Shown in pieces: positions 26,764 to 30,905 of a stretch of DNA of 64,000 bases (positions are counted from its first letter, which is position 1; every line of letters starts with the position of its first letter). This DNA is from Salinilacihabitans rarus (lineage in GTDB: Archaea > Halobacteriota > Halobacteria > Halobacteriales > Natrialbaceae), in assembly GCF_024296665.1 (NCBI RefSeq), contig NZ_CP100762.1:2418001-2482000 (forward strand), given 5' to 3'. Below the pieces are notes generated by a model. It saw only the letters and a list, made by a program, of their open reading frames with translations, was not told where the DNA came from and ran no database searches. A program made the position numbers and the translations under genes.

Positions 26764-27354
26764 TCACTCACCGTTCTCGACCGCCGTCTCGAACCCGTCG
26801 TCGGTCCGGGCGACCCCCGCCGCGCAGACGGCGTGCTCGAACTCGAGGTCGTAGGCCTCCCGCGCGGCGGCCGCGGCGTCGTCGGCCTCGAACGGGAACG
26901 CCTCGGGCGCGTCCCGCTCGTAGGTCGCGACCAGCGTCGGTTCCTCGACGGTCTCGACCAGCAGGGCGTCCCGGCGGACGGTGCCGATCAGTGCCGCGCC
27001 GTCGTCGTCGATCGTCGCGGCGATGCGGGGCGTGTCGTAGTCGTCTTTCTCGTAGTCGAGCGCGAGCAAACTCGTCGCGAGGGCGTCGCGGGCGGGGTAG
27101 CCCAGTTCGAGTTTCTCCGCGATCGGGTCGACGTGCGAGCCGTTGCCGACGGCGACCGCCTCGCCCGCCGGCGTCTCGACGACGCGCAGGCAGTTGTACG
27201 AGACGTAGGGGTTGTCCGTCTCCGGGGCGTCCGCGGTCGGCCCGACGGTGAGGGCGTCCTCGCGCTCTGCGATCTTTCGATTCGGGAACGACCGCGAGGA
27301 GACGCGGTAGGCGCCGACCCCGGGTCCGACGACGACGAAGCGTCCGACGTACAT
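26764..27354 (-). CDS. purO: IMP cyclohydrolase, archaeal PurO type
   Basis: A 196-residue enzyme closing FAICAR to IMP, the last step of de novo purine synthesis in archaea that lack bifunctional PurH. The sequence [21 protein letters not shown] and [10 protein letters not shown], plus [12 protein letters not shown], match the PurO family (MTH1020-like Ntn-hydrolase fold). It is divergent from the HNH gene, with both promoters within 90 bp. Confidence 0.9.
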
Positions 27355-27444: not shown

Positions 27445-28233
27445 GTGACGACGGAAGCGGAGTGCCTCGAAGCGTTGTGCGAGGCCGCGACCCGATTCGG
27501 CGAGTCGCCGACGAAAGCACAGTACGAGGCGCTGGGGCTGACGCCCGCGTCGGCGACGATCGTCCGGACGGTCGGCGGGTGGAACGAGGCGAAAAGACGG
27601 GCGGGTCTCGAGACGTACCCGTCTACGGGCCCTCGCGTCCGGCCGAAACCGCCCGACGTCGACCTTCCGGACGGTCTCGTCTGGGAGGAGCTATCGGCCG
27701 ATCAGCGGTGGTACTACCGGAACGTCGAGTGGAACACGGAACGGTCGCTTCGCCGCCGTTCCCGCCTTCGTTCGTGGCTCACCGACCGAAAACGCGAACG
27801 TGGTTGTGCCCGGTGTGGGCTCGAGACGCCGGCGTGTCCGGATTTCCACCACGTCGACCGAACCGCCAAGGAGATGGCGGTCGGTCGAATGATCACGTAC
27901 GGGTACGGGAAAGACGCGCTCCGAGAGGAACTCGCGAACTGTGAGGTCCTGTGTGCGAACTGCCACCGGAAGCTACACTATACGCCACCGGAACGGAGCC
28001 AGCGACGGTGGGTTCACGAGCAAAAACGGGCTACCGGGTGCCGCCGCTGTTCGGAGACGGACCCCGCGTGTCTGGACTTTCACCACGTGAGCGGAACGAA
28101 GGAGGCAACCGTCGCGGAACTGATCTCGGACGGCCGACCCAGAGAGCGGATTCGCGCCGAAATGGACCGCTGTCGTGTTCTCTGTGCAAACTGTCACCGA
28201 ACCGAACACGCCCGGGACCGACGGAATCAGTAG
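27445..28233 (+). CDS. Protein with one HNH-associated repeat and two HNH-type zinc domains
   Basis: A 262-residue protein from GTG. Residues 4-55 match the homing-endonuclease-associated repeat ([20 protein letters not shown]), a likely DNA-binding helix-turn-helix. Two HNH-like domains follow: one with CARCG, DFHH and VLCANCHRK (about residues 112-175), the other with CRRC, DFHH and VLCANCHRT (about 190-250). Both keep the paired His and the CxxCH zinc site. Codon use is less GC-biased than its neighbours by eye, suggesting transfer. It may be a nicking or double-strand nuclease; no recognition site or host gene is evident. Confidence 0.8.
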
Positions 28234-28300
28234 CGGCCGGTGCCGGCCGATACGCACGAGCGTCTCGCGTTCACCGCCGCCCGTGTCCGAATCGAAAGGG

Positions 28301-28306
28301 ATAAAC
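28301..28306 (+). promoter_or_regulatory. TATA-like box for tRNA-Gln
   Basis: ATAAAC after an A-rich run (AAAGGG), 30-35 nt before the tRNA 5' end. The spacing fits an archaeal box A. Confidence 0.55.
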
Positions 28307-28335
28307 GACCCCCCACCATACGTTGCACCGCGCGT

Positions 28336-28408
28336 AGTCCATTGGGGTAGTGGCCAATCCTGTCAGCTTCTGGGGCTGACGACCCTGGTTCGAATCCAGG
28401 ATGGACTA
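28336..28408 (+). tRNA. tRNA-Gln (anticodon CTG)
   Basis: The 73-nt cloverleaf was read by eye. The acceptor stem pairs AGTCCAT with ATGGACT, with A as discriminator. The anticodon stem TCAGC/GCTGA encloses the loop TTCTGGG, giving anticodon CTG, which decodes CAG. The T-arm is CCTGG-TTCGAAT-CCAGG. No intron is visible and CCA is not encoded. Confidence 0.93.
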
Positions 28409-28640
28409 CTTCTCCGCCGCTTCGTTTCGACTCGAAGATATCCCCAGCGACGCCCGTCGATCTCCAGTCGAAACGAAGGGGTCGCCGAGCGCCATCGTCG
28501 ACGCCGCTAGCTCCCTTTCGGCCGCCCCACGGGCGGCTACGGGCCAACTCCGCTCCGACGGGACGGGAGGTGGGGTCGATTCGCGCTCCGCTCGCTCTCC
28601 CTGCCGTCGGTCACGGGCCGTGGCGCGTCGTCGATTCCGG

Positions 28641-28918: not shown

Positions 28919-30277
28919 TCACTCCCCGCCGGTCCCGTACGCGCCCGCCCGCTCCAGTTCGCCCCGCCGACGGAGTACGGGCGGCGTCCGGCAGATGCCC
29001 GGTGCGCCGGTCACCTGCGGGACCGTGCAGTTGTTACAGCTCTCGCAGAGGACCCGGACGTCGGACTCGCGGCCTCCCTCGTCCGCCGCTCTCTCGCCGT
29101 CGAGCAGGCGCGCGCCCAGTCGCGGTTCGGCGTAGAACGGTCGGGCCATCCCGACCGCGTCGCAGGCGGGCGGTTCGTTCGACCCGCCTCCGAGCAGCCG
29201 ATCCATCCGGCCGCGCTCGCGGATCCCGCCTTCGGCGAGCACCGGAATCGCGACCGCCTCGCGCACGCGCCGACAGAACCCCTCGTTCCACGCCGGTTCG
29301 AAGTCGTACCACAGCGACTCGGCCCGGTTCGCGGCCGCGACCAGCCGCCGGCGCCGGGGGCCGCCGAAGGCCGCGTCGTAGCCCTCGCGGAGCGACTCGT
29401 TCTCCCACGCCCTGTCGGGATAGGCGCCGCGGACGACGCTCATGTCCCAGAAGACGGAGGTTTCCACCGGCACGACGGCGTCGTAGCCGAGCCGTTCGAG
29501 CCGGCGTGCGATCTCGACGCCGTCGTCGAGCGAGAGCCGCGGCCCGATCCCGGGCGGGCTGGGCGTCTCGGCTGGCACCTTCGTCATCAGGGGGACGTCG
29601 CCGGCCCGGTCGCGGACCTCGTCGCGGACGAGCGCGAGGAACGCGAGACGGGCCTCCGGCGAGCCGCCGAACTCGTCCTCCCGGCGGTTGTAGAACGGCG
29701 AGAGGAACTGCTGGACGATCCCCATGTTCGCCCCCGAGACGTGGATGCCGTCGTAGCCCGCGTCGACGGCGTACGCCGCCGACCGGCCGAAGTCGGCCGC
29801 CAGTTCGTACACCTCGTCGGTCGAGAGGACGTGCGGGTCGTAGTCGAGAACCCCCAGCCGGTCTAGCAGCCGCAGGGGCCACGGCGGTCGGGAGACCGCG
29901 AGCTGTTCGAGGCCGGGGTTCGCCGCGCGGTAGGCGGCGTGCCACGTCTCCATGCTCCGGAGGCCGCCGTGTTCCAGCTGGAGGAAGATCCGGCCCCCGT
30001 GGTCGTGGATCCGGTCGGTGAGCCGCGAGAGCCGCGAGACGAACGCCGGGTCGTGGACGCGGGTCATCCCCGGCGCCGCGCAGCCGCCCTCGCCGCGGAC
30101 GATCGTCGCCCCCTGACAGACGAGGCCGACGCCGGACTCGGCCGCGGGTTCGAGGTCGTCGATCAGCGTCTCGACGGCGTCGGGGCCGTTGCCCGCGCAT
30201 TCGAGCAGCGGCGCCCGGTAGAGCCGGTTCGGTACCTCGACGCCGCCGATATCGAGCGGGTCCTCGAGGGTCGCCAT
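28919..30277 (-). CDS. Old yellow enzyme family oxidoreductase (NADH:flavin oxidoreductase)
   Basis: A 452-residue TIM-barrel flavoprotein. RLYRAPLLECAGNG near residue 20, FLQLEHGG near 100, GANMGIVQQFLSPFYNRREDEFGGSPEAR near 180-205 (landmark only) and MARPFY near 398 follow the family order. The C-terminus has CESCNNC and a further cysteine in GAPGIC, the pattern that binds a 4Fe-4S cluster in dienoyl-CoA and trimethylamine reductases. However, the FAD/NAD domain that normally follows in those enzymes is absent. The electron donor is therefore unclear. Confidence 0.88.
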   Translation of the reverse strand: MATLEDPLDIGGVEVPNRLYRAPLLECAGNGPDAVETLIDDLEPAAESGVGLVCQGATIVRGEGGCAAPGMTRVHDPAFVSRLSRLTDRIHDHGGRIFLQLEHGGLRSMETWHAAYRAANPGLEQLAVSRPPWPLRLLDRLGVLDYDPHVLSTDEVYELAADFGRSAAYAVDAGYDGIHVSGANMGIVQQFLSPFYNRREDEFGGSPEARLAFLALVRDEVRDRAGDVPLMTKVPAETPSPPGIGPRLSLDDGVEIARRLERLGYDAVVPVETSVFWDMSVVRGAYPDRAWENESLREGYDAAFGGPRRRRLVAAANRAESLWYDFEPAWNEGFCRRVREAVAIPVLAEGGIRERGRMDRLLGGGSNEPPACDAVGMARPFYAEPRLGARLLDGERAADEGGRESDVRVLCESCNNCTVPQVTGAPGICRTPPVLRRRGELERAGAYGTGGE

Positions 30278-30374
30278 ACGCCGGGTATCACGGGGGCACA
30301 CAAGAGGGTAGTGCCGGTGGGAACGGCTGTCACACCGCGGCGAGCTTGAAGTGCGGGCGCGCCGAGTTCCGGGT

Positions 30375-30905
30375 ATGCCCGGTGCCGTCTTTCTCGACGG
30401 GGACACCGTCGAACTGCGAACGATCGAGCGCGAGGACGCCGCGTTCCTGACGGGACTCCTCGACGACCCGCGGGTCCGCCGCGACATCGGCTCCTACGCG
30501 CCGCTGAACGAGGTCCAGGAACGCGAGTGGATCGACTCCCTCGGCGAGTCGGAGGGCGTCCGGCTTCTGGTCGCCGTCGACGGGGACCCGGTCGGGACCG
30601 TCGGCCTCGACGACCCGAACGACGTCTGGGGGACGACCGAACTCGGCTACATGATCGATCCCGACCACTGGGGGAACGGCTACGCGACGGACGCGGTCTC
30701 GCTCGCCTGTCGGTACGCGTTCGCCGAGCGGCGACTCGACAAGGTGTACGCCTGCGTCTACGAGACGAACCCCGCGTCACAGCGCGTCCTCGAGAAGGTC
30801 GGCTTCGTCGAGGAGGGGCGGCTCCGCGAGGAGGCGTTCGTCGAGGGCGAGCGCGTCGACCTCCACCGGTACGGGCTGCTCGCCGACGAGTGGTTCGACG
30901 ACTGA
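30375..30905 (+). CDS. GNAT acetyltransferase, RimJ/RimL-like
   Basis: A 176-residue acetyltransferase. VELRTIEREDAAFL starts the domain, ELGYMIDPDHWGNGYATDAV carries the acetyl-CoA pyrophosphate loop (W-GNGYAT), and ACVYETNPASQRVLEKVGF is the typical RimJ/RimL motif. The ATG at 30375 is chosen over one eight codons upstream. The target, a ribosomal protein N-terminus or small molecule, is unknown. Confidence 0.9.
   Translation: MPGAVFLDGDTVELRTIEREDAAFLTGLLDDPRVRRDIGSYAPLNEVQEREWIDSLGESEGVRLLVAVDGDPVGTVGLDDPNDVWGTTELGYMIDPDHWGNGYATDAVSLACRYAFAERRLDKVYACVYETNPASQRVLEKVGFVEEGRLREEAFVEGERVDLHRYGLLADEWFDD

Follow-up and report, generated by a model that had tools for sequence, protein, structure and literature searches.

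Related systems

T4 SegB is a free-standing homing endonuclease located at phage tRNA genes and, in the passages which two publications give to it, is tied to preferential inheritance of the tRNA region (PMC2988022, PMC13096335). Homing with co-conversion is also described, in the relevant part of PMC2988022, for the HNH free-standing endonucleases of T4 and Aeh1 (MobE), the targets of which are phage protein genes. The locus described here lies in a window of 64,000 nucleotides of the Salinilacihabitans rarus chromosome (NZ_CP100762.1, positions 2,418,001–2,482,000). As far as those passages go, it shares with SegB a free-standing nuclease gene adjoining tRNA genes, and with the MobE-type enzymes of T4 and Aeh1 the HNH family and the free-standing arrangement. 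Unlike SegB, which is presented there as a GIY-YIG enzyme in a phage genome with a phage tRNA array, we find an HNH protein, an archaeal chromosome, and one cellular tRNA with compensated alleles. Unlike the MobE-type enzymes its probable target is a tRNA gene, and the part of PMC2988022 dealing with those enzymes does not mention tandem HNH modules.

By anatomy and comparative evidence, the exchange of tRNA and nuclease at this locus appears to resemble intronless homing. It differs from the known cases in the nuclease family, the archaeal chromosomal host and the recoded cellular tRNA. A literature search of titles and abstracts, in which subscription journals were thinly covered, found no tRNA-linked homing nucleases in archaeal chromosomes.

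The nuclease gene and its product

The host genome (3.6 Mb) is the only member of its genus in our sample; the relatives are haloarchaea. The locus contains the following features, PurO and FMNox being shorthand names for families backed by Pfam.

26764..27354 (−): left flank, IMP cyclohydrolase-like gene (PurO), vertical marker
27445..28233 (+): HNHR-HNH-HNH nuclease gene, 262 aa, GTG start (ORF, domain and conservation analysis)
27451..27612 (+): HNH-associated repeat PF18780, residues 3–56 (Pfam)
27790..27987 (+): first HNH module, residues 116–181, in one-HNH and two-HNH relatives alike
27988..28218 (+): second HNH module, residues 182–258, missing in the one-HNH class
28234..28335 (+): spacer between nuclease gene and tRNA, 102 bp
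28336..28409 (+): tRNA-Gln(CTG), hypervariable partner and probable target
28362..28380 (+): anticodon stem-loop, suggested target region by inference, the sole part of the tRNA differing in two sister pairs
28919..30487 (−): right flank, NADH:flavin oxidoreductase gene (FMNox), vertical marker

The original prediction, made from the sequence, had described one HNH-associated repeat and two HNH modules with DFHH and VLCANCHR, encoded 102 bp ahead of tRNA-Gln by a gene of less GC-biased codon pattern. All of this was borne out. The product has one HNHR repeat followed by two complete HNH modules, both with CxxC...DFHH...VLCANCHR, and the stop codon is 102 bp from tRNA-Gln(CTG). GC3 is 0.748, whereas eight of the nine genes around it have 0.89–0.955 and one, a short ORF, has 0.753. 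The nuclease is an ORF of its own outside the tRNA gene and is within neither intron nor intein.

Residues 3–56 match PF18780 [HNH_repeat] (E 1.1e-6, 29.3 bits against the curated Pfam cut-off of 26). Other haloarchaeal PF18780 proteins contain the same repeat but differ in that many have several copies of it, with no tRNA in the stretch examined. Two stretches match PF01844 [HNH] below threshold (18.5 against a curated cut-off of 21.4 bits), and there are two matches to phrog_3106 [HNH endonuclease] (E 5e-43). The zinc-binding CxxC pairs and invariant His/Asn/His of the HNH superfamily are present, and among the two-HNH relatives the checked residues are invariant in 32/32 (module 1) and 31–32/32 (module 2). 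An NCBIfam search with the protein gave no match and a PDB fold search gave none at E≤0.001; a sequence search against solved structures gave a single weak match, a 5-methylcytosine-specific restriction enzyme (E 0.027). The AlphaFold2 model is a confident one, with a mean pLDDT of 91.6 and a pTM of 0.70.

Purifying selection acts on both HNH modules (dN/dS approximately 0.10 for module 1 and 0.18 for module 2 in two-HNH relatives, dS being near saturation). Since both are under such selection one might guess that a single chain with two modules may cleave the two strands.

The locus across the family

A match to the protein was found in 85 of 125 family genomes searched. The tRNA-Gln locus was sampled in 122 family stretches and, window included, 119 tRNA-Gln(CTG) loci were classified; one contig-end locus, one duplicate contig and two tRNA-Gln(TTG) loci were left out. 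In the slot separating the IMP cyclohydrolase gene from the tRNA, 36 loci have a two-HNH gene, 26 a one-HNH gene and 24 a broken copy; in 33 the slot is empty. Tandem HNH modules in one chain, which had been called unusual, are therefore not so within this family. Presence and absence are polymorphic at one site, and nuclease copies are decayed or absent in many of the loci. The comparison did not find what would have spoken against inserted DNA, namely a gene kept at this site in every relative and matching in codon use.

Linkage to the tRNA is strict. For 91 of the 100 family protein matches tRNA-Gln(CTG) is no more than 3 kb away, and for 88 no more than 600 bp. The remaining nine end by residue 100, eight of these by residue 66, and seven of the nine adjoin tRNA-Gly(CCC). 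Where classifiable, intact nuclease genes are 5′ of an intact tRNA on the same strand, an arrangement recurring across the family. The link to tRNA-Gln(CTG) extends outside it, to records named Halovenus, Natronomonas, Halolamina, Halorientalis, Halobacterium and Halorhabdus. The IMP cyclohydrolase-like flank was found at 108 of 123 loci and the NADH:flavin oxidoreductase flank at 102 of 123.

It had been proposed that the gene is inserted DNA at a tRNA gene, no integrase being seen. Polymorphic presence and foreign codon use agree with the first half of this proposal, and taken with the tRNA neighbour they would also suit a conventional integrated element that uses the tRNA as its attachment site. 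The gene is, however, 5′ of the tRNA and not at its 3′ end, slot and orientation recur from locus to locus in the family, and the identified neighbours are housekeeping-type genes with, as already noted, no integrase among them. An integrase-type insertion was rejected on the position of the gene and the nature of these neighbours. Moreover the entire tRNA allele is exchanged along with the gene (see below). Integration associated with the tRNA is thus largely contradicted already, and we consider it highly improbable.

In two genomes (G004 and G003, loci L136 and L170) two HNH copies occur approximately 2 kb apart ahead of the tRNA, the farther copy having a stop codon. The right spacer, between tRNA-Gln and the oxidoreductase gene, is ~95–220 bp in some family genomes and ~810–1000 bp in many, suggesting that something has been gained or lost there too. 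A clean uninterrupted empty site was sought in one filled/empty pair and none was found.

Variation of tRNA-Gln(CTG)

The variability of the tRNA itself, missed in the original prediction, is the stronger observation. tRNA genes are usually seen as near-fixed landmarks; here one has apparently been exchanged repeatedly between close species, and a nuclease gene with it. In their first 73 bases the 121 loci show 34 alleles, the commonest in 18, with a mean pairwise difference of 8.6 bases and a maximum of 24. Acceptor, anticodon and T stem pairs are standard in 610 of 612 cells, so that the tRNA genes look functional and altered by compensation. The tRNA-Gln(CTG) of the window has an identical match in its own genome only, among 120 genomes with a match, two of these matches being tRNA-Gln(TTG).

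Two control tRNAs with no linkage to the nuclease, in contrast, vary little: the same tRNA-Phe sequence occurs in 121 of 123 genomes (of the other two, one is 99% identical and one is without a close copy), and the same tRNA-His in 91 of 122, the others being 92–99% identical. tRNA-Gln(TTG) was rejected as a control, being itself variable and nuclease-linked, and tRNA-Gly(CCC) matches were mixed with those to other tRNA-Gly genes.

Variation in the tRNA goes with the nuclease gene. Loci with CCGAG/TCGAG anticodon stems have the gene or a remnant in 16/16 cases as against 70/103 for other stems (P 0.005). Same-genus pairs with no gene on either side (n=27, of which 21 come from a single genus represented by 7 loci) have tRNAs a mean of 0.9 bases apart, as against 7.8 for pairs in which one or both members carry a gene or remnant (n=477). 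The gene-free pairs are nevertheless the more diverged in their flanks (0.133 versus 0.112).

One might suppose that this is simply a recombination-prone spot at which ordinary homologous recombination swaps tRNA and slot, the nuclease gene being a passive passenger. Exchange bounded by conserved flanks would be expected on that basis, and the nuclease activity is a predicted one. A passenger, however, would hardly leave the tRNA so stable in gene-free pairs, nor would it account for the much lower variability of tRNA-Phe and tRNA-His or for purifying selection on both HNH modules. We regard this explanation as quite unlikely.

Sister species

Replacement occurs between unchanged flanks. In sister pairs whose left-flank genes are 93–97% identical, identity outside is mostly 85–100%; there is none over the HNH slot and it is lower in the tRNA, and in two pairs the reduced identity runs several hundred bases beyond the tRNA. 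Sister species with near-identical flanks and different HNH slots typically have tRNAs 8–19 bases apart. The tRNA difference in pair G070/G069 is confined to the anticodon stem, with both strands changed; in pair G103/G106 that stem again differs on both strands, along with one unpaired tRNA base.

Leaving out broken copies, close pairs in the same slot state (n=19) have a median tRNA difference of 0, although five of the 19 are at least 8 bases apart, and close pairs in different states (n=16) differ by 3–19 bases with a median of 9 (P 5e-4 versus same-state pairs).

Co-inheritance of nuclease and tRNA

Based upon 51 loci with an intact nuclease gene and both flanks, nuclease class and tRNA allele are co-inherited. 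The two flanks are mutually correlated (r 0.76). With the flanks corrected for, the tRNA is correlated with the HNH protein (r 0.28, P 0.001); with HNH corrected for, it is not significantly correlated with either flank (r 0.10, P 0.08 and 0.075).

On the flank tree the tRNA characters are distributed as if shuffled: 14 changes against 13.4 for the acceptor stem, 14 against 14.3 for the anticodon stem and 26 against 25.0 for the T stem. Genus labels are clustered there (19 changes versus 35.1 shuffled). On the HNH tree the corresponding stems require 7, 11 and 16 changes, values reached by 0, 3 and 0 of 500 shuffles. The one/two-HNH class requires 15 changes on the flank tree (15.5 shuffled) and 2 on the HNH tree (0 of 500 shuffles as low), G078, a frame-shifted two-HNH copy, having been counted in this test as one-HNH. 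Vertical inheritance with loss only was rejected because the class is random on the flank tree. Co-conversion of nuclease and tRNA is thus supported by comparative evidence, namely the tree and pair tests.

Among two-HNH loci a considerable share of the species signal persists in the HNH protein (r 0.39 and 0.42 against the flanks), and the protein is weakly correlated with the tRNA (r 0.18). Recent cross-genus transfer, looked for as low synonymous divergence, was not found: between genera the HNH gene is more diverged at four-fold sites (0.556) than the flanks (0.355 and 0.448), so exchange between genera is not recent.

The main rival holds that the protein is an RNA nuclease cutting tRNA-Gln, the linked allele being immune, and that a toxin-antidote or defence cassette is exchanged by homologous recombination. 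It predicts the same linkage, stem changes and exchange. The nuclease subunit of the defence system Septu is an HNH protein. Cleavage of tRNA-Tyr by Septu, as given in the portion of PMC13096335 concerned with it, provides a precedent, and the viral relatives likewise adjoin tRNA genes. Pfam, however, describes the HNHR repeat as homing-endonuclease associated. Covariation with the nuclease is just as strong in the acceptor and T stems as in the anticodon stem, a pattern for which co-conversion is the simpler account, and a single slot per genome, broken in 24 of 119 loci, fits a homing cycle, though it would also fit a lost toxin. Cleavage of the tRNA itself therefore strikes us as unlikely, if less so than passive recombination.

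Proposed homing mechanism

We think it probable, judging from the sequence comparisons, that the protein is a free-standing homing endonuclease, the mobile unit being a cassette of nuclease gene and tRNA-Gln(CUG) that includes the probable target, that is, intronless homing with co-conversion. Donor DNA from a cassette-bearing strain, presumably brought in by mating or by viruses, would enter a related cell. The nuclease, acting upon DNA, would break the resident tRNA-Gln(CTG) gene, most likely in the anticodon stem-loop, with guidance probably provided by the HNHR repeat and helical linker and cutting by the HNH modules. Repair from the donor via the homologous flanks would confer nuclease gene and donor tRNA allele together, and the acquired allele, its stem altered yet base-paired, would no longer be cut. 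The nuclease gene would afterwards decay and be lost, as is suggested by the 24 slots with a broken copy and the 33 that are empty.

Recognition is best placed, as a candidate region, in the anticodon stem-loop, given the changes in two sister pairs and the ~33-base anticodon-loop inserts in two genomes. If the mechanism is correct, intronless homing takes place on the chromosomes of archaeal cells, a cellular tRNA serving as both target and cargo, and would be a driver for turnover of tRNA sequences and introns. The locus would then offer dozens of naturally occurring pairs of alleles on which cleavage could be tested directly.

Other tRNA loci

At nine of 20 tRNA-Gln(TTG) loci (L235, L239–L241, L243 and L247–L250, among L231–L250) the tRNA is, as we read the sequences, preceded by a cysteine-rich HNH ORF of a different kind, ~40–160 bp upstream and in the same orientation. 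Two of the nine look broken, and one example matches Pfam HNH. The anticodon stem of tRNA-Gln(TTG) is variable and several loci have an intron of ~30 bases.

Seven of nine repeat-only matches (L172–L178) involve a different HNHR protein just 3′ of tRNA-Gly(CCC), with an HNH_3-like domain in one example. A further HNHR protein is found by tRNA-Gly(CCC) in Natrinema zhouii (L049).

In two loci from other families (L197, 940–1027, −; L203, 2121–2208, +) a tRNA that reads as tRNA-Gln(CTG), its anticodon loop enlarged by an insert of ~33 bases, lies beside HNHR genes. ARAGORN labels these tRNAs as Ala and Glu; the insert is probably an intron.

More tentatively, and with the balance tipping slightly against it, there might be a general class of haloarchaeal chromosomal gene drives directed at tRNA genes of the cell, each nuclease paired with the tRNA next to it (HNHR-HNH-HNH with Gln-CTG, cysteine-rich HNH with Gln-TTG, HNHR-HNH_3 with Gly-CCC) and forcing tRNA replacement and recoding, stem variants and anticodon-loop introns being forms of resistance. 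Such a class, if real, would explain fast-evolving archaeal tRNA genes and the gain and loss of introns in them.

Viral relatives

The viral homologs include gp59 of Haloarcula virus HCTV-16 (49% identity to the window protein), which overlaps a tRNA-Gln(TTG) on the same strand, and gene 102 of Halogranum tailed virus 1 (HGTV-1; 46.5% identity), inside a tRNA array and again on the same strand. Both are like the window gene in being beside same-strand tRNA genes. They differ in being shorter, matching the linker and HNH part, in the tRNAs concerned (Gln-TTG in HCTV-16, Ala and Phe in HGTV-1) and in residing in a virus genome. HCTV-5 has a related HNH gene with no tRNA close by.

Viruses are possible carriers of the cassette. 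Among distant relatives from IMG/VR (L254–L333), 30 of the 80 loci kept have a tRNA within 300 bp, with many different isoacceptors and often in tRNA arrays; for the first 50 loci the figure is 24, where the tRNA content of the records would lead one to expect no more than 10.3.
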